Origin: Rhizohabitans arisaemae
GTDB lineage: Bacteria; Actinomycetota; Actinomycetes; Streptosporangiales; Streptosporangiaceae
Reading direction: 5' to 3'
NCBI RefSeq assembly: GCF_025996515.1
Contig: NZ_BLRH01000035.1
Coordinates: forward strand, 868,001-932,000
DNA: 64,000 nt
This document shows, piece after piece, positions 24,089 to 51,690 of the stretch (position 1 is its first letter; each line of letters opens with the position of its first letter). Under the pieces are notes generated by a model. It did no database searches. It was not told the DNA's origin and was given only the letters and a program-made list of their open reading frames with translations. The translations under genes and the position numbers were made by a program.

Positions 24089-25255
24089 ATGCCAAAGGAG
24101 ATCACGGTTGTCGGGGGAGGGCTGGCGGGGCTGGTGGCGGCCATCGCGTGCGCCGAGGCCGGGGCGCGGGTCACGCTGCATGAGGCCCACGCCACGTTCG
24201 GCGGGCGAGGCCGGGCGACCGCCGCGCCGTACATCGCCCATGAGGGGGCACACGTCTTCTACGCAGACGGCCCGCACTGGAGCTGGCTCACCTCGCGGGG
24301 CCTGACGGGTCCGCTCGGCAGGCCGCCGCTCCGGGACGCCGTACGGATGGGATTCCTGCACGGCGGCCGGATGCGCCGCCTCCCGCCCGCCGGGTTCCTC
24401 CGCCTGATGGCGGGGCGGGGCAGGAAAGCCCCCGTCGACGAGGACTTCTTCACCTGGGTTTCCAGGACCCACGGTGCGGAGACGGCCAGGGTGGCCGCCA
24501 ACGCGATCGGCGTCGTCACCTACGACGCCGACACCGGGCGTCTGTCGGCCGCCTTCGTGTGGGAGTTGCTGCGGCGGGTGTTCGCGCCGGCTCCGCCCGC
24601 CGTCCGATGGGTGATCGGAGGCTGGCAGGCCGTCGTCGGCAGGCTTGTCGACCGGGCCCGCGAGCTCGGGGTCCGCCTGGAACCGAACTCCCGGGTGACC
24701 GAGCTTCCCGGTGGGCCGGTGATCGTGGCGACCGAGCTGGCCTCGGCCCGGGTGCTCCTCGGCGATGCGTCGCTGACCTGGGAGAGCGGGAACTGTGCGA
24801 TGCTCGACCTGGCCGTCCGCCGGGACTCGCGGGACCGTTTCATCTGCTTCGACCTCGACGGCGGCGGCTTCCACGAAAGCTATTCGATGCAGGATCCGAC
24901 GGTCGCGCCGGAGGGGGAGTCACTGTTCCAGATCGACATGCCGGTCCGCCGGGACGAGGGCAGGACGGACGCCCGGAGGCGGGTGGAGGAGCTCGCCGAC
25001 CTGACGGTCCCCGGCTGGCGGGAGCGGACGACCTGGCGGCGGTCGGGGTTCTCCAAGGGTCGTACCGGAGCTCTGGACCTGCCGGGATACACCTGGCGGG
25101 ACCGTCCCGCGATCGACCGCGGCGACGGCGTGTTCCTGGCGGGTGACATGGTGGCGGCGCCCGGTATGCGCGGTGAGATCTCCGTCAACAGTGCGATCAA
25201 GGCGGCCGAGGGGGCGGTGCGTGCGGCGGCGGGCAAGGTCGGGGCGGCGCCGTGA
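24089..25255 (+). CDS. FAD-dependent oxidoreductase (phytoene-desaturase-like)
   Basis: A 388-residue flavoprotein. It opens with the dinucleotide-binding motif ITVVGGGLAGLVAAIACAEAG and TLHEAHATFGGRGR, and closes with a second FAD-contact segment GVFLAGDMVAAPGMRGEISV. The fold matches the amine-oxidase / phytoene-desaturase group; the substrate is unknown. The ATG at 24089 is preceded by AAGGAGG; the upstream extension of the frame is not coding. It overlaps the next gene, an ECF41 sigma factor, by four bases. ECF41 genes are normally paired with oxidoreductases or carboxymuconolactone decarboxylases whose expression they drive, so this is probably the cognate partner. Confidence 0.88.
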   Translation: MPKEITVVGGGLAGLVAAIACAEAGARVTLHEAHATFGGRGRATAAPYIAHEGAHVFYADGPHWSWLTSRGLTGPLGRPPLRDAVRMGFLHGGRMRRLPPAGFLRLMAGRGRKAPVDEDFFTWVSRTHGAETARVAANAIGVVTYDADTGRLSAAFVWELLRRVFAPAPPAVRWVIGGWQAVVGRLVDRARELGVRLEPNSRVTELPGGPVIVATELASARVLLGDASLTWESGNCAMLDLAVRRDSRDRFICFDLDGGGFHESYSMQDPTVAPEGESLFQIDMPVRRDEGRTDARRRVEELADLTVPGWRERTTWRRSGFSKGRTGALDLPGYTWRDRPAIDRGDGVFLAGDMVAAPGMRGEISVNSAIKAAEGAVRAAAGKVGAAP

Positions 25256-26136
25256 CCACGGCCCACGACGTCTTCCAGGCTCACCGGAACCTGCTGTTCA
25301 GCCTCGCCTACGACATTCTGGGCAGTGTCGCCGACGCCGAGGACACGGTTCAGGAGACCTGGCTGCGCTGGTCCGGGGTGGACCATGCCGGGGTAGGCAA
25401 CCCGCGCGCCTACCTGGTGCGGATCACCACCCGCCTGGCGCTGGACCAGGTGACGCGTGCCCGTTCGGCCCGGGAGGACTACGTCGGTCCCTGGCTGCCC
25501 GAACCGCTGTGGACCGAGCGGCCGGAGAGCGGCGGGGACCCGGCCGAGGACGTCGTCCGCGCCCAGACCGTCGCCTTCGGCTTGATGGTGGTGCTGGAGA
25601 CCCTGTCGCCGCTGGAACGCGCGGCGTTCGTGCTGCGGGAGGCGTTCGGGTTCGAGCATTCCGAGATCGCCGTCATCCTCGCCCGGTCACCCGCCGCCGT
25701 TCGCCAGCTCGTCCATCGCGCCCGTGAGCACGTTCAGGCCCGCCGCCCCCGGTTCGCCGCGGAGCGGGCCGTCGCGCAGGCCGCCGCGGAACGTTTCCTG
25801 GACGCGGCGCTCGGCGGCAGTTTCGACGGCCTGATGGAGGTTCTCGCCCCCGACGTCACGCTCTGGTTCGACGGCGGGGGACAGGTCCGTACGGCGCTGC
25901 GGCCGATCCGGGGGAACGACAAGGTGAGCCGTCTGCTCGCCGTCGTGGCCCGGACCGACCGGCCCCTGGACGTCCGCTGGTCGCGGGGCGACGGCCCGCC
26001 GACCGCGCTGATGCTGGCCGACGGGACGCCGCTCGGCGTGCTCACCGTGGTCACCACTCCGGGCGGGGAGCTGATCAGGGAGGTTTACGGGCTCCTCAAC
26101 CCGGCCAAGCTCACGCACCTCCGGCCGGCGGAGTGA
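25252..26136 (+). CDS. ECF41-group RNA polymerase sigma factor (SigJ-like)
   Basis: A 294-residue sigma factor. Region 2 (about residues 5-75, with DILGSVADAEDTVQETWLRW) and region 4 (about 115-165, EAFGFEHSEIAVILARSPAA) are followed by a SnoaL-like C-terminal domain of 120 residues. The group marks are present: WLPEPL between regions 2 and 4, FDGGGQ (the DGGGK motif with Q for K) and NPAKL (the NPDKL motif). In this group the fused C-terminal domain acts in place of a separate anti-sigma factor. The start is the GTG of a GTGA overlap with the oxidoreductase gene. It may recognise the TGTCACA element upstream of that gene. Confidence 0.92.
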   Translation: MTTAHDVFQAHRNLLFSLAYDILGSVADAEDTVQETWLRWSGVDHAGVGNPRAYLVRITTRLALDQVTRARSAREDYVGPWLPEPLWTERPESGGDPAEDVVRAQTVAFGLMVVLETLSPLERAAFVLREAFGFEHSEIAVILARSPAAVRQLVHRAREHVQARRPRFAAERAVAQAAAERFLDAALGGSFDGLMEVLAPDVTLWFDGGGQVRTALRPIRGNDKVSRLLAVVARTDRPLDVRWSRGDGPPTALMLADGTPLGVLTVVTTPGGELIREVYGLLNPAKLTHLRPAE

Positions 26137-26290
26137 TCGCGCACCCCGATCCCGTCGGTGAACGTCGCCGTGGGAGCCGGGGGTGGGCGGCGGAAACCTC
26201 CGTGGATTCCGGCGATGCGTCTTCGGGTGGGCGGCTTCCCGTCTATTACCGCATACACGGTCGATGACATGCGGAAAATCGGCAAACTAA

Positions 26291-26326
26291 CGAACTTGCG
26301 TTCGATCATGTTATGAACGTATGTTC
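26291..26326 (+). promoter_or_regulatory. Two LexA-type SOS boxes
   Basis: CGAACTTGCGTTCG (26291-26304) and GAACGTATGTTC (26315-26326) both fit the actinobacterial SOS box (GAAC-N4-GTTC); the first is a perfect 14-base palindrome in its arms. They lie directly upstream of the DUF6504-DnaE2 genes, in a short AT-rich patch. The remainder of 26137-26290 shows nothing further. Confidence 0.88.
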
Positions 26327-26389
26327 GATCCGAAGTCTACAGCCGTGCCTCTCCCCCGGAGGCGATTCGTGCGCCTGGGGAGAGTGACC

Positions 26390-26464
26390 ATGAACGGGTG
26401 GACCGCCGACAACCGTGCTGATGCTGACGCGACGGCCGAACCGCTGGGCGAGGAGGAGACGTGA
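26390..26464 (+). CDS. Tiny ORF heading the SOS cassette
   Basis: A 24-codon reading frame (begins MNGWTADNRADADATAEPLG) with a good ribosome site GGGGAGAG seven bases upstream and a stop that overlaps the GTG of the DUF6504 gene as GTGA. The same frame is open back to an ATG at 26321 inside the second SOS box, which would give 47 residues. The overlap and ribosome site suggest real translation, perhaps as a leader that couples translation to DUF6504. I do not recognise the peptide, and it could be a relic of a lost gene. Confidence 0.4.
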   Translation: MNGWTADNRADADATAEPLGEEET

Positions 26465-26727
26465 GCAGAGTGTACGGAGACCCCATCGAGGCATGGACCC
26501 GGGACGGACGGCCGGACCGGTTCCTCTGGCGCGATCGCCTCTACACGGTGGAACGGGTGCTCGATCACTGGGTGACCTCCCGCCAGTGGTGGAAGACCAC
26601 CGAGACCGACCTGGGGGAGCGCCGGTTCTGGCGGGTCGAGGCGACCCCGGACCGGGAGGTCGGGGTCTACGAGCTGCGGTACGACACCGCGAGCAACGGC
26701 TGGCTGATGCTGCGGGTCTGGGACTGA
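26461..26727 (+). CDS. DUF6504 family protein
   Basis: An 88-residue protein of the DUF6504 family: RPDRFLWRDRLYTVERVLDHW in the middle and WRVEATPDREVGVYELRYDT at the end. Such genes typically lie between a Y-family polymerase-like gene (ImuB) and dnaE2 in actinomycete mutagenesis cassettes. The exact role is not known; a link with lesion bypass is inferred from this constant position. The GTG start follows GAGGAGG. It is followed, three bases after its stop, by dnaE2. No imuA' or imuB is present here. Confidence 0.88.
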   Translation: MSRVYGDPIEAWTRDGRPDRFLWRDRLYTVERVLDHWVTSRQWWKTTETDLGERRFWRVEATPDREVGVYELRYDTASNGWLMLRVWD

Positions 26728-26730
26728 GCG

Positions 26731-29700
26731 GTGCGCCCGTTCACCCATCTGCACGTCGCCTCCGCCTACTCGCTCCGGTACGGCGCCGCGTTTCCGGCGG
26801 CCCTCGCCGCGCGGGCGGCCGAGCTCGGCATGGACGCCCTGGCGCTGACGGACCGCGACGGGATCTACGGCGCGGTCAAGCACGTCCAGGCCTGCGTGAA
26901 AGCCGGTATCCGGGCGATCGTCGGCGTCGACCTGGTGCTGGCGGACGATTCCGCGCCGGGGAAGCCGGCGAGGGTCACCCTGCTGGCCAAACCCGGCGGG
27001 TGGGGCGCGCTCTGCCGGGTGGCCAGCGCGGCCCATCTGGGGCAGGCCGGCGCCCGGGGCGCCCCCGCGGTGACCCGTGAGTCGATCGCGGAGCAGGCGC
27101 AGGGGGAGCTGGTCCTCTTGCTCGGCCGGGGGTCGGACGTCGGGCGGGCGGTGGCCGAGCATCGGTTCGACGACGCGCGGGACCTGTTCCGGCGCTGGCG
27201 TGAAGCGGTCCCGGACCTCGCCGTGGAGGTCGTCGACCAGTACGGCTACCGCGAGGCGAGCACGGCGGCCCGGATGCTCGCCTTCGCCGACCGGGTGCGC
27301 GCCAAGGCCGTACTCACCAATCAGGTGCGGTATGCGGATCCGCAGGACGCGCCGGTCGCGGACGTCCTGGACGCGGCGCGGCGGCTGGCGCCGCTGCACC
27401 CCCGGCATCTGGATCAGAGCACGTCGCACGCCTATCTGAAGAGCGGGAAGGAGATGCTGGAGGTCGCGGAGCGGATCTGCGGGCCGGACCGGGCGGCGAT
27501 CGGCCGGTTGCTGCACACCACCCGCGAGGTCGCGGAGGGCTGCGTGCTCGACCCGGACGACGTGCTGGCGATGCGCGTGGGCCGGGTCCACCTGCCGGAG
27601 GTCGGCCGGGATCCGGTGCCGCTCCTGCGCAACCACTGCGAGGACGGACTGATCCGCCGAGGTATGGAACGATCCAAAACGACACGGGCCCGGCTTGAGG
27701 ACGAGCTGCGCGTCATCGAGCGGAAGAACCTATCCGGATATTTCATCGTCATCGCGGAAATCGCCAGCATGATTCGGCACATCCCGGTCCGCTGCGCCAT
27801 CCGCGGATCCGGCGCGGGCAGCCTGGTCAACCACCTGATCGGCATCAGCGAGGTGAACCCGATCGAGCACGGCCTGCTCATGGAGCGCTTCCTCTCCGAC
27901 GGCAGGATCGGGCTCCCCGACATCGACCTCGACGTGGAGTCCGCCGCGCGGCTCGACTGCTATCGGGCGATCTACGAGCGGTACGGCGAGACGCGGATGG
28001 CCTGCGTCTCGATGATGGAGACCTATCGGGCCCGCAGCGCGATCCGGGACGTCGGCGCGGGGGTGGGCCTGCCGCCGCACGAGATCGATGTGATCGCCAA
28101 GGCGTTCCCGCACATCCGGGCACGGCAGATCCGGGCCGCGCTGAACGACCTGCCCGAGCTGCGGGCGAGTGGGCTGGACCAGGCACAGCTGCGTCAGGTG
28201 TTCGCCCTGGCGGAGCGGCTCGACGGGCTGCCCCGGCACATCGCCATGCATCCGTGCGGGGTGCTGGTCGGCAACGGCGGGCTGCGGGACCGCACGCCGG
28301 TGCAGCACAGCCTGATGGGTTTCCCGATGAGCCAGTTCGACAAGGACGACGTGGAGGAGGCCGGTCTGCTCAAACTGGACGTCCTCGGGGTACGGATGCA
28401 GTCGGCCATCGCCTACACGCTCTCGGAGATCTCCAGGGTGGACGGGGTGACGGTGGATCCGGACGCGGTGCCCCGGGACGACGCCGCGACCTACGACATG
28501 ATCTGCTCGGGCCGTACCCTGGGCTGCTTCCAGATCGAGTCGCCGGGTCAGCGGGAGCTGGTGGCCAAGCTGGAGCCCCGGACCGTCCACGATCTGATCG
28601 TCGACATCTCGCTGTTCCGCCCCGGACCGGTCAACTCCGACATGGTCACCCCGTATCTGGAGACCCGGCACGGCTGGCGTGTCGCGAAATATCCGCATGA
28701 AAGTCTGCGGGAGGCGCTGGCCGAGACCCACGGGGTGGTCGTCTTTCACGAACAGGTTCTCCGGGTCGTCGACGCCGTCACCGGCTGCGGCCTCTCCCAC
28801 GCGGAGAAGGTGCGCCGGACGCTGAGCGACCCGGACCGGCGCCAGGACGTCCGCCGCTGGTTCCTGGCGAACGCCCGGCCGGACTTCGACCCGGCGACGG
28901 TGGAGCGGGTGTGGACGATCCTGGAGGCGTTCGGCGCGTTCGGCTTCTGCAAGGCCCACGCCGCGGCCTTCGCCCTGCCCACCTACCAGTCCGCCTGGCT
29001 GAAACGGCACCACACCGCGGCCTTCTTCGCCGGGATCCTCACCCACGAGCCGGGGATGTACCCGCCGCGGGTCATCCTCGACGACGCCCGCCGATGCGGG
29101 GTGGAGATCCTCCCGCTCGACGTCAACCGGTCCGGCCGGAACTGGGAGGTGGAGAAACGCCCGACCCCGGACGGACCCGTCTACGGCCTGCGGGTTCCGC
29201 TGTCCGCGGTGAAGGGGGTCTCCGACGCCGAAGTCGAGCGGATCACGGCGGGCCGCCCGTACACCTCCCTCGCCGACTTCTGGGCGCGGGCGCGGCCGTC
29301 CCGCCCCGTCGCCGAACGCGTCGTCGAGGTGGGGGGAGCCGACGGCCTGTACGGGCTGAGCCTGGCCGGTCCCCGCTGGCGCCCGGGGCGCCTGACCAGG
29401 CGCGATCTGATCGCCCAGGTGGGGGCGCTGGCGCGGGGGCCGTCGGGGGCGGGGGCGCAGATGCCCCTGGAGTTCACCGAGCGCATCGAGCCGGGGGAGC
29501 TGCCGGAGATGACCGAGGCCGAGGCGGTCCGGGCGGAGCTGGAGATCCTGGGGATGGACGTCAGCCGGCACGTGGTCGGGTTCCACGAGGAGCTGCTCGC
29601 GGAGCTCGGCGTCGTCCGCTCCCGCGACCTGCTGCGCTGCCGGAACAACTCCTCGATCCTGGTCGCCGGGGTCAAGGTCGCCACCCAGACGCCCGCGGTG

Positions 29701-30159
29701 CGCTCCGGGCAGCGGGTGATTTTCGTGACGCTGGACGACTCGACCGGGCCGGTCGACCTGACGTTCTTCGAGTCGGTCCAGGGGGCCTGCGCCGCCACGG
29801 TGTTCGGGTCCTGGCTGCTGGTGGCGAGGGGGGTGGTCCGCCGTACCGGCGCTCGGGCGGTCTCCCTGCGCGCCGAGGCGTGCTGGGACCTTCCGGCGCT
29901 TGAGGAGCTCCGCGCCGCCGAGGGGCCGGACGCGGTGCGGAGCCTGGTACGGCGTGCGCCCGCAACCCGCGACGGGGGCGTCGGCGGCCGGGCGATCGAG
30001 TACGGCAACGGCTACCGGCTCTCGCCGTACGCAGACCTCGGGCCCGTTCCGTCTCCGGCGGCCGGCCTGGCGGCGAGCGTGCCGTCCGCCAGGCTCTGGC
30101 ACGCCAGCCAGGGAAGCTCCGGGGACACCGGGCGCCGACAGTATTTACCTCGGCACTGA
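26731..30159 (+). CDS. dnaE2: Error-prone DNA polymerase III alpha subunit DnaE2/ImuC
   Basis: A 1142-residue C-family DNA polymerase. The PHP domain begins FTHLHVASAYSLRYG and includes LALTDRDGIYGAVKH; the catalytic aspartates are in LPDIDLDVE at about residues 394-402; RPGPVNSDMVTPYLETRHG and FGFCKAHAAAFALPTYQSAWLKRHH follow, and an OB domain lies near the C-terminus (VTLDDSTGPVDLTFFE). Length and PHP sequence separate it from the replicative DnaE1. DnaE2 performs translesion synthesis after DNA damage, normally together with ImuA' and ImuB. Here it is preceded by two SOS boxes and DUF6504 only, so any ImuB must be encoded elsewhere. The GTG start is three bases after the DUF6504 stop. Confidence 0.92.
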   Translation: MRPFTHLHVASAYSLRYGAAFPAALAARAAELGMDALALTDRDGIYGAVKHVQACVKAGIRAIVGVDLVLADDSAPGKPARVTLLAKPGGWGALCRVASAAHLGQAGARGAPAVTRESIAEQAQGELVLLLGRGSDVGRAVAEHRFDDARDLFRRWREAVPDLAVEVVDQYGYREASTAARMLAFADRVRAKAVLTNQVRYADPQDAPVADVLDAARRLAPLHPRHLDQSTSHAYLKSGKEMLEVAERICGPDRAAIGRLLHTTREVAEGCVLDPDDVLAMRVGRVHLPEVGRDPVPLLRNHCEDGLIRRGMERSKTTRARLEDELRVIERKNLSGYFIVIAEIASMIRHIPVRCAIRGSGAGSLVNHLIGISEVNPIEHGLLMERFLSDGRIGLPDIDLDVESAARLDCYRAIYERYGETRMACVSMMETYRARSAIRDVGAGVGLPPHEIDVIAKAFPHIRARQIRAALNDLPELRASGLDQAQLRQVFALAERLDGLPRHIAMHPCGVLVGNGGLRDRTPVQHSLMGFPMSQFDKDDVEEAGLLKLDVLGVRMQSAIAYTLSEISRVDGVTVDPDAVPRDDAATYDMICSGRTLGCFQIESPGQRELVAKLEPRTVHDLIVDISLFRPGPVNSDMVTPYLETRHGWRVAKYPHESLREALAETHGVVVFHEQVLRVVDAVTGCGLSHAEKVRRTLSDPDRRQDVRRWFLANARPDFDPATVERVWTILEAFGAFGFCKAHAAAFALPTYQSAWLKRHHTAAFFAGILTHEPGMYPPRVILDDARRCGVEILPLDVNRSGRNWEVEKRPTPDGPVYGLRVPLSAVKGVSDAEVERITAGRPYTSLADFWARARPSRPVAERVVEVGGADGLYGLSLAGPRWRPGRLTRRDLIAQVGALARGPSGAGAQMPLEFTERIEPGELPEMTEAEAVRAELEILGMDVSRHVVGFHEELLAELGVVRSRDLLRCRNNSSILVAGVKVATQTPAVRSGQRVIFVTLDDSTGPVDLTFFESVQGACAATVFGSWLLVARGVVRRTGARAVSLRAEACWDLPALEELRAAEGPDAVRSLVRRAPATRDGGVGGRAIEYGNGYRLSPYADLGPVPSPAAGLAASVPSARLWHASQGSSGDTGRRQYLPRH

Positions 30160-30236: not shown

Positions 30237-30611
30237 ATGAAGCCCTCCGCGCTTCTGATTCCCCTGATCGCAGCCGGTGTGGTCGCGGTGACAGCCGTCC
30301 CCGCCAACGCCGAGGTGAACTCCTTCAGAGTGACGGTGAACCCCGGTGAGGAGATCTTCGCCAGCGGTCCGCTCAAGAAGACGAAGGACTCGCTCGGCGC
30401 GGTCCTGGTGAAGCTGGAGGAGAACGCCGCCAACGCCGAGGTGAAGGTCGGCAACTGCAAGGGCAAGTACCTCGGTGCCGCCGCCATCGTGGCGAACGAC
30501 CACCGGCCGGCCGTCGCCGCCGCCCAGATCCCCACCGGCCAGTGCGTCAGGCTCAAGGTGAAGAACAACGGCACGGCTCCCACGGTCTTCGCCGGTACCT
30601 GGTCCTTCTGA
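30237..30611 (+). CDS. Small secreted protein of unknown function
   Basis: A 124-residue exported protein. A signal peptide covers about residues 1-26 (ALLIPLIAAGVVAVTAVPANA, cleavage after ANA). The mature part is a small, Lys- and Ala-rich, probably beta-sandwich domain with FRVTVNPGEEIFASG, two cysteines (GNCKG, GQCVR) that may form a disulphide, and a C-terminal TVFAGTWSF. Neither a lipobox nor a membrane anchor is present, so it is released or wall-associated. GTGAGACGCC precedes the ATG. I do not recognise the family. It is monocistronic: a good terminator follows. Confidence 0.82.
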   Translation: MKPSALLIPLIAAGVVAVTAVPANAEVNSFRVTVNPGEEIFASGPLKKTKDSLGAVLVKLEENAANAEVKVGNCKGKYLGAAAIVANDHRPAVAAAQIPTGQCVRLKVKNNGTAPTVFAGTWSF

Positions 30612-31657: not shown

Positions 31658-32329
31658 TCACCGCAGGCCCCGCCGACCGGCCCCGGCGGGTACGTCGAGG
31701 CGGACGGTGGAGTCGGTGGTCATCTGCTGGGCCCGGGTGATCTCCCAGATCGTCGCCCCGCACAGCAGCGCGGAGACCAGGACCGAGGCGGCCTGCGCGT
31801 GGCCGGTCCCGGTCAGCAGCGGGCCACGGGAGAACACCAGCGTCCAGACCGTCACCAGGCAGCTCGCCCACCAGCAGGTGAGCAGGGTGAGCCAGGGGGC
31901 GAGGGTGAGGCGCCGGGGGGAGGAGCTGCCCCGCCAGACGTCGTGGACGATCAGGGGCGGCAGGACCAGGTTGACCAGCGGGACGAACCACACCGCGATC
32001 GCCCATCCCCGGCTGAACCGCGGCCTGGTCAGCCCGTACACCTCGATGGTCTGCCTGGCCCGCCACAGCCAGCCCAGGTAGGACCCGGCGGTGGTGAGGG
32101 CGATTCCGGTCGCCAGCAGGACAAGCAGGGCGAAGACCGTGACGGCCCCGACGACGGGGTTACCTTCCGATTCCCTGGGCATACCGCCCATGGCGGCGAT
32201 CTCTCGCATCAACGTCTGGCCACGGGTGGCCTCGAAGATCGCGAGAGCGGTGACCGCCAGGACGTTCGAAACCAGTAAAACGCAGGTCCACATGGCAGGC
32301 CGAACCGGCGCACTTGGCGCATAGCGCAT
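31658..32329 (-). CDS. DUF4328 membrane protein
   Basis: A 223-residue membrane protein with about five or six helices. The family marks are YLGWLWRARQTIEVYGLTRP between helices 3 and 4 and GWAIAVWFVPLVNLVLPPLI after it, both typical of DUF4328. Function is unknown; members are widespread in actinomycetes. The start codon is an ATG 12 bases before the plus-strand TGTCTCCCC, which reads GGGGAGACA upstream on the coding strand and supplies a good ribosome site. Confidence 0.87.
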   Translation of the reverse strand: MRYAPSAPVRPAMWTCVLLVSNVLAVTALAIFEATRGQTLMREIAAMGGMPRESEGNPVVGAVTVFALLVLLATGIALTTAGSYLGWLWRARQTIEVYGLTRPRFSRGWAIAVWFVPLVNLVLPPLIVHDVWRGSSSPRRLTLAPWLTLLTCWWASCLVTVWTLVFSRGPLLTGTGHAQAASVLVSALLCGATIWEITRAQQMTTDSTVRLDVPAGAGRRGLR

Positions 32330-32445
32330 GATGTCTCCCCCCGCATGCGCTTGATCACAGACAGTGCCTACATATCCCGGGGTTGGACACTCCTAACCCA
32401 AGATCGTTCCATCTCTGTGACCGGTAACGGGGGCGTAGTACCGGT

Positions 32446-33099
32446 TCAGGTGACGAATCCGGACTCCCAGGCCCATGCCGCGACCTCCACCCGGTTCCGT
32501 ACGCCGAGTTTGGTCTGGATGCTGCCGAGGTGGGTCTTGACGGTGGACAGCGAGACGAAGAGCTCGGCGGCGACCTCCTGGTTGGTACGGCCCCGCGCGA
32601 CCAGCCGGACCACGTCCAGCTCGCGCTCGGTGAGCGGTTCGGCCGGGGCCCGTCCGTGCCCGGTCGTCGAGGGTTTGGCCAGATGCTCCAGGAGCCGTAC
32701 GGTCACCGACGGCGAGACCAGGGCGTCTCCGCCCGCGGCGGCCCGGATCGCCTCGATCAGCAGGGTGGGCCCGCTGTCCTTGAGCAGGAAGCCGCACGCT
32801 CCCGCGCGCAGCGCGCCGTACACGTATTCGTCGAGGTCGAACGTGGTGACGATGACCACGCGGAACGGCTGGGCCACCCCGGGGCCGGCCAGGATCCGGG
32901 TGACCTCTATTCCGTCGAGCCGGGGCATCCGGATGTCGAGCAGGCACACGTCCGGTCTGAGCCGCCGCGCGTGCTCGACGGCCTCCGCCCCGTCGGCCAC
33001 CGACGCGACGACCTCGATGTCCGGCTGGGCATCCAAGATCATTTTAAAGCCGGTGCGAACAAGCTGCTGGTCGTCGGCGATGAGAACCCGAATCGTCAC
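32446..33099 (-). CDS. LuxR-family response regulator (orphan)
   Basis: A 217-residue NarL/FixJ-type regulator. The receiver domain (about residues 1-120) has the acidic pocket IADDQQ, the phosphoacceptor aspartate in VCLLDIRMP and the conserved lysine in FLLKDS. The C-terminal LuxR helix-turn-helix is at about 150-210 (LTERELDVVRLVARGRTNQEVA). I chose the GTG at 33099, which gives the exact family N-terminus MTIRVLIADDQQ; the frame extends 38 codons upstream. No histidine kinase is in the window nearby, so the partner is elsewhere or lost. It is divergent from an ABC exporter that it could regulate; a short palindrome lies just upstream of its start. Confidence 0.9.
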   Translation of the reverse strand: MTIRVLIADDQQLVRTGFKMILDAQPDIEVVASVADGAEAVEHARRLRPDVCLLDIRMPRLDGIEVTRILAGPGVAQPFRVVIVTTFDLDEYVYGALRAGACGFLLKDSGPTLLIEAIRAAAGGDALVSPSVTVRLLEHLAKPSTTGHGRAPAEPLTERELDVVRLVARGRTNQEVAAELFVSLSTVKTHLGSIQTKLGVRNRVEVAAWAWESGFVT

Positions 33100-33101
33100 A
33101 T

Positions 33102-33118
33102 AGGTGATTCTGTCACCT
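33102..33118 (+). promoter_or_regulatory. Palindrome upstream of the response regulator gene
   Basis: AGGTGA and TCACCT form a 6-base inverted repeat with a five-base spacer, three bases upstream of the regulator start and 110 bases before the divergent ABC gene. This suits an autoregulatory site, but the arms are short. Confidence 0.4.
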
Positions 33119-33227
33119 CGAAAAAGGGGGCAGTCCGTACTAATCAGCCATTCGGCTGACCCGTCGGCCATCGGATAGCACCACCGGCCGATCCGGTGAC
33201 GGCCTTGCGACACCCATGATCGGTCGT

Positions 33228-33917
33228 ATGAGTGAAGACGTGCTGTCCGGCATCGGCCTGGTCAAGAGATTCGGGGAGACCGTCGCCCTCGGCGGCGTCG
33301 GCCTGCAGGTCGCCCGAGGCGAGGCCGTGGCGATCATGGGCCCGAGCGGGTCGGGAAAATCCACCCTCCTGCACTGCCTGGCGGGGATCACCCGACCCGA
33401 CGCCGGCCGGGTCCACCTGCTCGGACAACGCATCGACACGATAGGGGAGCGGCGCCGCAGCGAGCTGCGGAGAACCCGGTTCGGCTTCGTCTTCCAGTTC
33501 GGCCAGCTCCTCCCCGAACTCCCCGCCGAGGAGAACGTCGCCCTCCCCCTCATGCTGGGCGGGATGCCCCGGACCAAGGCGGTCGGGCGGGCCCGGGACT
33601 GGTTCGGCCCACTCGGGCTCACCGGTAAGGAGCGGCGACGACCCGGTGAACTGTCCGGCGGCGAGGCACAGCGGGTCGCGATCGCCCGGGCGCTCGTCAC
33701 CGAGCCGGCCGTGGTCTTCGCCGACGAGCCCACCGGCGCACTCGACCAGGCCACCGGCCACACCGTGATGGGGCTGCTCGTCGACTCCACCAGGAAAGGC
33801 GGGGCCTCGCTGGTCGTCGTCACCCACGACCCGGAGGTCGCGCGCTGGTGCGACCGCGTCGTCGAGGTACGCGACGGACTCCTGCGCGGCGCCGCCGGCG
33901 CGGAGGCCGGCCGGTGA
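33228..33917 (+). CDS. ABC transporter ATPase, MacB/LolD-like
   Basis: A 229-residue ATPase of the type that works with FtsX-fold permeases. Walker A GPSGSGKST is at residues 38-46, the Q-loop region at FVFQFGQLLPELPAEENV, the signature LSGGEAQRVAIARAL at about 143 and Walker B VVFADEPTGALD at about 166. An ATG four codons upstream (33216) is an alternative start. It overlaps the permease gene by four bases (GTGA). Such systems export peptides, antibiotics or lipoproteins, or act as mechanotransmitters. Expression may be tied to the divergent response regulator. Confidence 0.92.
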   Translation: MSEDVLSGIGLVKRFGETVALGGVGLQVARGEAVAIMGPSGSGKSTLLHCLAGITRPDAGRVHLLGQRIDTIGERRRSELRRTRFGFVFQFGQLLPELPAEENVALPLMLGGMPRTKAVGRARDWFGPLGLTGKERRRPGELSGGEAQRVAIARALVTEPAVVFADEPTGALDQATGHTVMGLLVDSTRKGGASLVVVTHDPEVARWCDRVVEVRDGLLRGAAGAEAGR

Positions 33918-35893
33918 GCGCGCTCCTCAGACTGAACGTCCGGCTGCTGCGCGGCGGCGGGCGGGGCGGCCTGCTCGGCAGCGGCCTGACCCTCGTCGCC
34001 GTCGCGGTCGCCACCACCCTGCTGCTCTTCTCCGTCTCGGTCAACGTCGCGTTCGCCGACCGGGCCGCCCGCGAAACGTGGCGCAACCCGGCCCCCGCCG
34101 AGAGCGGCGCCCGGGTGATCCAAGCCGTCGGCACCGAGTTCGCCGGCGGCAAGCCGATCGTCGTGGTCGACCTCGCCGCACTCGACCCCGGCGCCCCCGC
34201 GCCGCCCGGACTGCCCCGGTTCCCCCGGCCAGGGGAGGTATGGCTCTCCTCCGCGCTCGCCGAACTGGCGGCAGAGCTCCCCGCCGACCGGCTCGCGGCC
34301 AGATTCCCCGGCGAACGGGCGGGTACCGTCGGGGACGACGCGCTCATCCACCCGGACGAGCTCGTCGCCGTGCTCGGGCATCGGCCCGGCGCCCCCGCCG
34401 TGACCGCCGAGCGGCCGCCCGGCCCCGACCTCACCTCCGTCTCCCCGACTCCGATCAAGGACTTCGCCGGTACGGAGACCCGGCTCGCGGTGAACTACCG
34501 GATTCTCGCCGCCGTCGCCGCCGTACTCATGATCGTCCCGCTGCTGGTCTTCGGCGGCGCCGCGGCCCGGCTCACGGTCGCGCGCCGCGACGCCAGACTC
34601 GCCGCGCTCCGCCTCGTCGGGGCCACCCCCGGCCAGGTCGTCGGCATGACCGTGGCCGAAGCCGTGGTCACCGCGCTGGCCGGCTCGGCGGTCGGCACCG
34701 TCCTGTACACCGTGGCGATCCCGGTACTCGCCCGGATCGAGATCGCCGGTGGGGGCTGGTACGCGGCGGACCTCTGGCCGGGGATCCCGATCGTCGCCGC
34801 GGTGCTGTTCGCCGTACCGCTGCTCGTCGGGCTCAGTGCGGCGATCGGGCTCCGCCAAGTCGTGGTGAGCCCACTCGGGGTGGCCAGACGGCACACGCCG
34901 CCCGCCCTGCGCGTGATCCGGGTCCTGGCCTTCGTCACGGCGCTGCTGGTCGTACCCTTCATGAGCCCGGAGGTCGGGGTCGGCGTCATCCTCACCGTGA
35001 TCGGCCTGGTCTTTCTGGCGATCAACCTCGTCGGCCCGTGGGTGGTGGCGCTGATCGGCCGGATCACCGCCGCGGTCGCCCGGCGGCCCGCGGGACTCCT
35101 CGCGGCCAGGAGGCTCGTGGACGACCCGCGGTCCGCCTGGCGGACGGTGAGCGGGGTCGCCCTCACCGGGTTCGTCGCCGGTTTCGTCAGCCTGCTCAGC
35201 CCCGACCCGAGCGCGTTCACCCGCGACACCCCCGGCGACCGGCTGGAACTCACCGTGCCCGCCGCACAGGCGGCCGGCACGGCCGACGCCGCCCGCCGGA
35301 GACTGGCCCAGGCGGGGGTGCGGGCCACGGTGACGGCGGAGGACACCCGGCTCCAGGGCGCCGACCGGGTCGCGACCGTCGTCGCGACGGTGAGCGGAGG
35401 CGGCGACGAGGCGCTGGACCGTGGCCGGACCGCCCTGCGCGACCTCGTCCCCGGACAGCCCCCGCAGGCGAGCCGGGACCGCGACGCGCAAGCCGTCTCC
35501 CTCTTCACCGACATCCGCACCGGGACCGTCGTGGTACTCGCCGTGTCGTTCCTCGTCGCCGTCGCCGGAGCCGGGATCACCGCCGCCTCCACCATCTTGG
35601 ACCGGCGCCGGACGTACGCGCTGCTCCGCCTGGCCGGAACCCCCCTGGAGGTCCTCGATCGGGCCAGACGGTCCGAAACCATGATCCCCCTCACGATCAT
35701 GGGCGGCGGGGCGATCCTCACCGGACTGTTCGTCGCGGCGCCGTTCGCGACGCAGGTCGGGCTGAATCCCGGCGGCCTCGTCACCCTCGCGATCTGCGTG
35801 AGCCTGGGCGTCGCCGGGGTGATCGGCGCCGGCGCGCTCACCAGGCCCCTCCTCAAATCCGTGACCGAGAACCCGGCCCCCCGCCCCGACTGA
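33914..35893 (+). CDS. ABC transporter permease, FtsX fold
   Basis: A 659-residue membrane protein. A first transmembrane helix (GSGLTLVAVAVATTLLLFSV) is followed by an extracytoplasmic region of about 140 residues. Next come a first FtsX core (about residues 190-330: ILAAVAAVLMIVPLLVFGGA, then ARRDARLAALRLVGATPGQV), a pair of helices and cytoplasmic linker, and a second core near the C-terminus (VVVLAVSFLVAVAGAGITAA, then LDRRRTYALLRLAGTP). The duplicated core is usual for long actinomycete FtsX permeases. The GTG start overlaps the ATPase stop. A perfect hairpin ends the operon. Confidence 0.9.
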   Translation: MSALLRLNVRLLRGGGRGGLLGSGLTLVAVAVATTLLLFSVSVNVAFADRAARETWRNPAPAESGARVIQAVGTEFAGGKPIVVVDLAALDPGAPAPPGLPRFPRPGEVWLSSALAELAAELPADRLAARFPGERAGTVGDDALIHPDELVAVLGHRPGAPAVTAERPPGPDLTSVSPTPIKDFAGTETRLAVNYRILAAVAAVLMIVPLLVFGGAAARLTVARRDARLAALRLVGATPGQVVGMTVAEAVVTALAGSAVGTVLYTVAIPVLARIEIAGGGWYAADLWPGIPIVAAVLFAVPLLVGLSAAIGLRQVVVSPLGVARRHTPPALRVIRVLAFVTALLVVPFMSPEVGVGVILTVIGLVFLAINLVGPWVVALIGRITAAVARRPAGLLAARRLVDDPRSAWRTVSGVALTGFVAGFVSLLSPDPSAFTRDTPGDRLELTVPAAQAAGTADAARRRLAQAGVRATVTAEDTRLQGADRVATVVATVSGGGDEALDRGRTALRDLVPGQPPQASRDRDAQAVSLFTDIRTGTVVVLAVSFLVAVAGAGITAASTILDRRRTYALLRLAGTPLEVLDRARRSETMIPLTIMGGGAILTGLFVAAPFATQVGLNPGGLVTLAICVSLGVAGVIGAGALTRPLLKSVTENPAPRPD

Positions 35894-50619: not shown

Positions 50620-51690
50620 TCAGGAGGGGGCCGCGGCCAGGGAGATCCCTTCCCGGTCGAGTGCGTCCTTGACCCGGACCCGCAGTTCCCGGGAGACCTC
50701 CCACTGCTTGAGCGGCGCGGTCTTGACCACGACCCGGATGACGACGGCTTCGTGGGAGATGGCCTCGACGCCCCACACTTCGGGCTCTTCGAGGACGACC
50801 CCTTCCTCCAGGTCCCGCCAGAGTTTCACCGCGGTCTGCTTGAGCACCTCGCGTACCCGGGGGACGTCGGAGTCGTAGGAGACGGGGACGTCGAACACGG
50901 CCCGCGCCCAGCCCTGGGACTCGTTGCCGACCCGGATGATCTCGCCGTTGCGGACGTACCAGACGGCGCCGTTGACGTCGCGGAGGCGGGTGATCCGCAG
51001 AGTGACGGCTTCGACGGTGCCCTGGGCGTGCTGGACGTCGATGACGTCGCCGACGCCGAACTGGTCTTCGAGGATCATGAACAGACCGGAGAGGAAGTCC
51101 TTGATGACGTTCTGGGCGCCGAAGCCGACGGCGACCCCGATGACGCTCGCGCTGGCCAGCAACGGGCCGAGGGGGATGCCGAGCCGGCCGAGGATGGTGA
51201 GGACGGCGGTGCCCAGGATGATGATCGAGGCGATGGACTTGAGGAGGGAGTCCATGGTGCGGGCCCGCTGCCGCCGGCGTTCGGCGAGGAGCGCCGGGTT
51301 GCCGTCGAAGACCGTGGCGGTCCGGTAGCGGAGCCGTTCCGGCATGAGGCCGGTTCCCATACGGGTGGTGAGCTTGCCGATCAGCCGGTTCACGATCGCC
51401 CGGATGACGAACGCGATGATCAGGATCAGGAAGAGGTCCGCGACTCCCGCGACGAGGGGGACCCACTTGGCGTTGTCGAACATCTGGTTGAAGAGCGGGC
51501 AGATGAGCCCGTCGGTGCAGGATTCCATCAGCGCCTCGTCGGCCGGCTTGACGGGGAAGGTCGGGCTGGGCAGCGGCGAGGAGGGCGGTGCCGGTGTGGG
51601 CGTCGGCGTGGGTACGGACGTCGGTGTCGGCGTCGGCACGGGCACGGGTGACGGGCTCAACCCAATCAGCGCGGCCACGGGCGAGAGCAC
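50620..51690 (-). CDS. MscS-family mechanosensitive ion channel
   Basis: A 356-residue membrane channel. An unusual N-terminal segment (about residues 12-48) is rich in Pro and Thr with PTPTPT repeats and probably lies outside the membrane or near the wall. Transmembrane helices follow at about 77-105 and 140-160, then the pore helix TM3 with [20 protein letters not shown] and the beta domain [20 protein letters not shown]. The C-terminal vestibule domain ends the protein. It protects against osmotic downshock in general; its Pro/Thr extension is of unknown use. The GTG start follows GGGGGAT (plus-strand complement ATCCCCC). Confidence 0.9.

Follow-up and report, generated by a model that had tools for sequence, protein, structure and literature searches.

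In this study, we examined a stretch of 64,000 nucleotides from the soil actinobacterium Rhizohabitans arisaemae (the window; contig NZ_BLRH01000035.1, positions 868,001 to 932,000) and found that it carries, at window positions 26290-30159, a cassette in which a gene of the DUF6504 family is followed on the + strand, after a gap of 3 bases, by dnaE2, the gene for a probably error-prone DNA polymerase. We read it, with a probability of about 0.7 that covers the mechanism proposed below as a whole, as a cassette for translesion synthesis under SOS control, of the predicted DnaE2-[ImuB-C] type. This type, group five of the DnaE2B polymerases, was named in 2026 as a prediction (PMC12926913), and the pairing of solo ImuB-C with DnaE2 in the absence of DinB had been noted in 2013 (PMC3765255). 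The cassette is a further example of this published, so far only predicted type, and its layout is not new. Below, G000 denotes the R. arisaemae assembly (8.33 Mb in 63 contigs, completeness 98.13%, contamination 4.31%), the other G labels denote relatives, of which 60 genomes were searched, and L labels denote loci.

The operon consists of DUF6504 and dnaE2 alone. The former (26461..26727, + strand) encodes a standalone ImuB-C-like protein of 88 residues, predicted to be all-beta, which scores 66.4 bits with PF20114 (E 3e-18; cut-off 24.2 bits). The latter (26731..30159, + strand) encodes a DnaE2B-type protein of 1142 residues with the Pfam domains PHP, DNA_pol3_alpha, finger, HHH_6 and OB; since it reaches 649.8 bits against the NCBIfam error-prone polymerase model, under that model's cut-off of 939, we regard it as divergent. 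With Pfam hits for both proteins and LexA-like sites of 11/12 and 10/12 consensus bases ahead of them, the central observation of the first-pass annotation, two LexA boxes before DUF6504 and dnaE2, is confirmed.

The identification of DUF6504 draws on comparisons with ImuB. PF20114 matches the C-terminus of five of six proteobacterial ImuB proteins scanned at E <= 1, two of them above the curated cut-off (E 3.3e-6 and 1.4e-5) and three below it, down to E 0.06. When 24 DUF6504 proteins were aligned by hhalign with eight proteobacterial ImuB C-termini the result was 95.8% (E 7e-9), compared with 0.1% for the negative control, DUF6504 against ImuA'. Judged from such profiles, DUF6504 and the C-terminal domain (ImuB-C) of ImuB from Proteobacteria are homologous. 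This equation appears to be added by the present analysis, the supplements of PMC12926913 aside, and a literature search across 5.39 million papers did not turn up the term DUF6504. Several results weigh against the identification: the sixth proteobacterial ImuB scanned has no PF20114 match, and hhalign linked actinobacterial ImuB C-termini neither to DUF6504 (2.2%) nor to the C-termini of proteobacterial ImuB (0.3%). Because the actinobacterial comparisons fail, it is the proteobacterial type on which the ImuB-C identity rests. Structurally, an AlphaFold2 model of the protein has six strands (predicted local distance difference test, pLDDT, 88.6), and a search with it against solved structures returned 221 matches at E <= 10, none at E <= 0.001; ImuB-C has been described as a beta-barrel without close PDB relatives (PMC12926913). 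A second fold comparison had its best Z, 7.1, with engineered binding scaffolds, a likeness that may reflect common arrangement only and that we set aside. A phage search gave no match to DUF6504, and the one plasmid record, of 11.85 Mb from Nonomuraea gerenzanensis, is probably chromosomal, as it is larger than the whole G000 genome.

The polymerase belongs, by its position in the tree, to the DnaE2B clade and not to DnaE2A, the clade linked to ImuA' and ImuB. When 38 sequences were placed in a maximum-likelihood tree, with the labelled DnaE2 sequences of PMC12926913 outside it, the window protein fell among 25 of DnaE2B type, including the Streptomyces-like L193 and Embleya L224, which a branch with 100/100 support sets apart from the rest. 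Another branch (100/99) holds 11 sequences of DnaE2A type and a third the two DnaE1-type sequences of G000; the branches between DnaE1 and DnaE2B are long, as the program warned. By alignment, the polymerase aspartates are kept in PDIDLDVE (residues 396-403; 27916..27939, + strand) and in the region of the third catalytic aspartate, LKLDVLGV (residues 547-554; 28369..28392, + strand). The metal site of the PHP domain is degenerate, with HLHVAS, TDRDG, GVD and NQVRY in the window polymerase where DnaE1 has HLHVHT, TDHGN or SDHGN, GIE and NDSHY. Under the rule of PMC12926913, by which any deviation from the conserved PHP motif marks the nuclease as inactive, that of the window polymerase would count as inactive. 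Alignment also places a putative clamp-binding-like motif at QMPLEF (residues 910-915; 29458..29475, + strand), in columns where five of the six other DnaE2B sequences shown have QLP or QMP and one has QLA; for some Actinobacteria, QLPLx has been reported as a putative clamp motif (PMC3919608).

That imuA' and imuB are absent, as the first-pass annotation had stated for this locus, was borne out across the genome, since the search for an imuA'-imuB operon elsewhere, the result that it had named as a refutation, was run and none was found. A Y-family domain search (PF00817) of G000 returned a single protein, a DinB whose catalytic motifs are kept, as judged by eye. This search is weak for the degenerate ImuB, and because it detected ImuB in only 14 of the 21 relatives having one, we replaced it for this purpose by an actinobacterial ImuB profile of eight sequences, which scored ImuB at 340-832 bits in 21 of the 60 relatives. 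In G000, where 25 of 71 first-look candidates were scored, the profile matched the DinB alone, at 83 bits, and no ImuB. An ImuA' profile of six sequences, which reached E < 1e-13 in 23 of 60 genomes, gave no match at E <= 0.01 among the 48 of 170 first-look candidates scored in G000. Neither gene was found anywhere in these searches of a 98.13% complete assembly.

The relatives show the same division. We assigned DnaE2B at an identity of at least 46% (46-100%) and DnaE2A at 33-37%, adding G047 at 32%, whose DnaE2A lies on the same contig as its imuB; DnaE1-type sequences reach 32% and touch the DnaE2A band. Of these assignments, the tree checks 22 for DnaE2B (out of 29) and 7 for DnaE2A (out of 23), and the DnaE2A of G019 and G029 are assigned by fragments only. 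So defined, DnaE2B occurs in 29 of the 60 relatives and DnaE2A in 23, and the cassette of Mycobacterium tuberculosis is itself split (PMC6511836), which does not agree with the earlier premise that imuA', imuB and dnaE2 stand together in most actinobacteria. ImuA' (E < 1e-13) accompanies DnaE2A in 22 of 23 genomes (not in G040, which is 77% complete) and is also found in G036; ImuB (at least 340 bits) accompanies it in 21 of 23, with none in G029, a fragment only in G040, and a further contig-end fragment in G036. Neither reaches these thresholds in any of the 26 DnaE2B-only genomes, where the best ImuA' values are E 0.009 in G008 and E 0.005 in G057. DUF6504, present in 42 of the 60 relatives, is found in 27 of the 29 with DnaE2B and in 15 of the 31 without it. 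The two DnaE2B genomes without it are G042, with a weaker profile match directly upstream of dnaE2, and G057, in which a Y-family homologue adjoins dnaE2 instead. DUF6504 and dnaE2 are adjacent on one strand, 0-0.6 kb apart, in 22 of 27 genomes; they are 8.3 kb apart in G059 and far apart in G008, G021 and G030, and in G029 they are at a contig end. A different combination is seen at L180 (G037:C3:10229-16012), where DUF6504 is followed in one direction by imuA', imuB and a DnaE2A-type dnaE2, a standalone DUF6504 together with a complete set.

Upstream of DUF6504 lie two LexA-like 16-mers, listed without strand: box 1 (ACGAACTTGCGTTCGA, 26290..26305, 11/12 consensus bases) and box 2 (ATGAACGTATGTTCGA, 26313..26328, 10/12), 23 bp apart from start to start. 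A first-order Markov model of the window predicts 0.1 site of at least 11/12 and 2.5 sites of at least 10/12 by chance per 64 kb; the whole window holds 11 sites of at least 10/12 against these 2.5. Further 10/12 sites occur at window positions 51476 (TCGAACATCTGGTTGA) and 62015 (TCGAACATCCATTCGT). Near-consensus boxes also precede lexA and the genes of G000 that we take, from their N-termini, to be recA and ruvC, and we consider the box code valid in this genome for that reason. Across 50 DUF6504 loci (53 rows minus G026:C141, G020:C647 and G029:C683), 44 have a box of at least 10/12 within -260 to +20 of the match, compared with 0.24 expected from single-base shuffles, and the box is perfect in 16. 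A double box with 22-23 bp spacing stands upstream of DUF6504 also at L029, L033, L048 and L166. As predicted from these boxes, SOS control of DUF6504 loci is conserved, and the window cassette, having such boxes upstream, is placed in the LexA (SOS) regulon by prediction.

Taken together, these features suggest the following mechanism. LexA would repress the operon through the two boxes, and DNA damage would lift the repression. As a standalone ImuB-C beta domain, DUF6504 would bind the PHP domain of DnaE2B and recruit the polymerase, using the interface that a published model gives for the ImuB-C portion of ImuB from M. tuberculosis. Because its polymerase site is intact and its PHP site degenerate, DnaE2B would then be predicted to synthesize without PHP proofreading. 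The clamp- and RecA-binding roles of the absent ImuB and ImuA' would probably be filled by the QxP-type motif of DnaE2B and by DinB with RecA, DinB joining from elsewhere in the genome, and the disordered C-terminal tail of DnaE2B probably serves as a docking peptide.

This tail, LWHASQGSSG (residues 1122-1131; 30094..30123, + strand, from alignment and model), lies in a predicted disordered region, residues 1079-1142 having a pLDDT < 50 in the structure model. LWHxSxGSSG or a variant of it (as in G029 and G057) is found near the protein end in 25 of the 29 DnaE2B genomes; its distance to the stop is 0-13 residues in 24 of them and 46 residues in G029. It is lacking in G013, G042 and G044, and the G020 protein ends at a contig end. 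The comparison covers DnaE2A and DnaE2B sequences, since the two DnaE1 sequences end at locus ends before their C-terminus, and none of the DnaE2A-type sequences has the motif. Those in the tree end instead in SRDF[H/R] (10 of 11) or SRNFH (one); SRDF[H/R], reported at the very C-terminus of ~77% of DnaE2 (PMC3919608) and used here as a mark of the ImuA'-ImuB-DnaE2 mutasome, is missing from the window DnaE2. A text search of the literature, supplements outside it, gave one chance match to pieces of the tail. Conserved yet without predicted structure, the tail is likely a docking peptide of DnaE2B.

As to partners, the suggestion of the first-pass annotation that DUF6504 takes this role stands as the best-supported one, DUF6504 being related to ImuB-C; a second candidate was overlooked, namely a dinB with a LexA-like box of its own. 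This gene lies on another contig than the cassette, behind a methyltransferase-like gene, and the gap directly upstream of it contains TCGAACGTATAATCGA (10/12), equalled in 1 of 200 shuffles. In a tree of 46 DinB proteins, G000 falls in a 13-genome clade with support 100/100. Within this clade a box of at least 10/12 precedes dinB in 11 of 13 genomes and one of at least 9/12 in all 13, in nearly the same place except in G034; outside it, none of 36 genomes reaches 10/12 (the box table covers 49 of the 60 genomes). At seven loci from other families (L185-L190, L192), either DUF6504-dnaE2 or dnaE2 is followed downstream by a dinB 65-71% identical to that of G000. Four of these loci (L186, L188, L190, L192) have, between dnaE2 and dinB, the methyltransferase that precedes dinB in G000. 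A methyltransferase-like gene is also seen upstream of dinB in many relatives (L002 and many of L096-L122). The tail of the G000 DinB, ERAMDRAVRRFGEGAII, resembles the N-terminus of RecA (RecA-NT) from the same genome, ETALAQIERQFGKGSVM, with 1 of 300 shuffles as good; a RecA-NT motif has been described in C-terminal extensions of many Y-family proteins (PMC6511836). Owing to this tail, its own box and the homologues downstream of dnaE2 elsewhere, we consider DinB, with RecA, a candidate partner in trans. In one arrangement dinB may be held under SOS control through the operon, and in the other through a box of its own.

A number of observations speak against a role for DinB. Its box is confined to one clade and may represent a single event. 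Among the DnaE2B-only genomes of the family outside this clade, none of six has a dinB box of at least 10/12, and 4 of the 36 genomes outside the clade reach 9/12. Within the clade, the box of G034 lies ~25 bases off the common place, the 9/12 sites of G005 and G022 are equalled by 7.5% and 3% of shuffles, respectively. G015 has the box with neither DUF6504 nor DnaE2B. Further, the RecA-NT match is short, and in G048 and G049 it is equalled in 63 and 41 of 300 shuffles.

DUF6504 also occurs under predicted SOS control where no DnaE2 of either kind was found, in G005, G006, G010, G012, G018 and G023 (98-99% complete). In G005, four genes of the window's right flank (31658-35893) directly follow DUF6504, and dnaE2 is missing; G012, which has no Y-family match either, counts against the mechanism proposed above. 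A second DUF6504 paralogue (B-type, ~88 residues), with a LexA box of 11 or 12/12 close upstream, is present in 8 of the 60 genomes (L159, L161, L163, L167, L169, L173, L176, L179); in G000, the B profile matches the known gene only. The possibility that lexA lies opposite the B-type gene was discarded, as the neighbours scanned by Pfam are TetR in two cases and Uma2 in one. Since an SOS-boxed DUF6504 persists in six relatives without DnaE2, it does not appear tied to this polymerase and may serve more than DnaE2. ImuB-C in general has been proposed to serve beyond DnaE2, and solo ImuB-C is found next to other repair genes (PMC3765255).

How far the proposed mechanism extends beyond the two encoded proteins can be read in different ways. 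In its boldest form, which we put forward tentatively and consider rather unlikely as a whole, the system would be a split mutasome and not a two-protein machine: a catalytic DinB with a RecA-NT-like tail, induced through its own LexA box, would replace the Y-family scaffold ImuB and, through RecA, ImuA'; DUF6504 would be an SOS adaptor neutral as to polymerase, which in some lineages survives after DnaE2 is lost; and the LWHxSxGSSG tail would be the docking peptide of DnaE2B. The strict opposite, in which DnaE2B and DUF6504 are enough by themselves and dinB belongs to the SOS response independently of them, agrees with an operon that holds these two genes alone, with the 0/6 result for dinB boxes of at least 10/12 in the DnaE2B-only family genomes outside the clade and with the dinB box that G015 retains without the cassette; the phrase 'linked only to ImuB-C' in PMC12926913 points the same way. 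It sits less well with the dinB genes downstream of dnaE2 in other families, which at 65-71% identity are of the same kind as that of G000, and with DinB being the only Y-family protein found in G000, and we hold it to be possible, if somewhat doubtful.

Alternatively, DUF6504 could be a general SOS damage-sensing or polymerase-adaptor protein, with the dnaE2 neighbourhood as one of several deployments. The six nearly complete genomes with SOS-boxed DUF6504 and no DnaE2, the retained right flank in G005, the second SOS-boxed paralogue in 8 of 60 genomes and the solo ImuB-C beside other repair genes (PMC3765255) would all fit; its retention in 27 of 29 DnaE2B genomes against 15 of 31 others, and its adjacency to dnaE2 in 22 of 27, speak against it, and we hold this explanation to be rather improbable. 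A third account would be that imuA' and imuB do exist but escaped detection, either because they fall within the 2% absent from the assembly or because they have diverged too far for the profiles to match. The assembly (98.13% complete, 63 contigs, 4.31% contamination) and the fraction of candidates scored (48 of 170 and 25 of 71) give some room for this, but independent assembly gaps would not produce the same pattern in 26 of 26 DnaE2B-only genomes, two of which (G008, G057) yield ImuA' values of only E 0.009 and 0.005; we therefore judge it very improbable.

Set beside known systems, the cassette fits best with the DnaE2-[ImuB-C] type, a fit judged by features, with the sequences of PMC12926913 themselves outside the comparison. 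Like that type, described for Actinobacteria only, it combines a DnaE2B polymerase with a standalone ImuB-C encoded together with dnaE2 in a genome where neither imuA nor imuB was found. The type has no associated Y-family polymerase, and there is none in the operon; PMC12926913 names no other partner, whereas in G000 a dinB on another contig carries a LexA-like box of its own. DnaE2B group four, with an active PolY, ImuB-C and RecA (Tessaracoccus lapidicaptus; PMC12926913), shares the polymerase clade and the small protein, and the dinB genes 65-71% identical to that of G000 are the downstream genes of comparable loci (L185-L190, L192); group four, however, has its PolY in the operon, and the window cassette contains no Y-family gene. 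With the ImuA'-ImuB-DnaE2 mutasome of M. tuberculosis type it has in common a LexA-controlled C-family polymerase and an ImuB-C-like domain, but it lacks ImuA' and ImuB, its polymerase is DnaE2B and not DnaE2A, and its tail is LWHxSxGSSG and not SRDF[H/R]. The Deinococcus deserti system likewise has a standalone ImuB-C beside dnaE2 without ImuA; there, ultraviolet mutagenesis requires ImuY and DnaE2, and the operon includes the Y-family gene for ImuY as well as lexA, both missing from the window cassette. Finally, the Streptomyces dnaE2-dinP operon (PMC9380542), to which L193 and the plasmid locus L224 are related, shares the DnaE2B clade and the upstream LexA boxes, and dnaE2 of Streptomyces venezuelae is SOS-induced (PMC9380542). 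In place of DUF6504 it has a Y-family protein, called inactive in PMC12926913, and the tail of L193 reads FGHRSPGSAG.

DnaE2 drives damage-induced mutation in several bacteria and was long thought to require ImuA' and ImuB. The lineage described here retains an SOS-boxed DnaE2 with, by our reading, the ImuB tail domain only, as a separate 88-residue protein, and its relatives illustrate the outcome of losing dnaE2 (G005) or of separating the two genes (G008, G021, G030). It offers a compact system in which to ask what portion of ImuB an error-prone C-family polymerase needs. Three testable leads emerge, the dinB box, the DnaE2B tail and DUF6504 genes without DnaE2, none of which we found in the literature examined, the supplements of PMC12926913 aside.

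Of the remaining features of the locus, the tiny open reading frame of 24 residues (26390..26464, + strand) named by the first-pass annotation has no Pfam match. Visual inspection of the sequence upstream of 29 further DUF6504 loci revealed no recognizable counterpart, and it is probably not a gene. A hairpin between the boxes and DUF6504 (arms 26349-26359 and 26374-26384) was rejected, as it folds no better than shuffles (z 0.57). Beyond the cassette, a comparison of 16 loci recovered the small genes at 30237 and 30749 in none of them. Besides the window DnaE2, G000 encodes a pair of DnaE1-type C-family polymerases separated by 26 kb (G000:C33:59103-59909, L003, and 85346-86155, L004). A gene for a sigma factor of the extracytoplasmic function type adjoins the dnaE2 locus both in the window (25252-26136) and on the Embleya plasmid (L224 416-2618), the two being 38% identical (other strand). 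Beside it lies, in each case, a gene resembling flavin adenine dinucleotide-dependent oxidoreductases, recognized by eye in the window and from the annotation in L224; the two have no mutual tblastn match.

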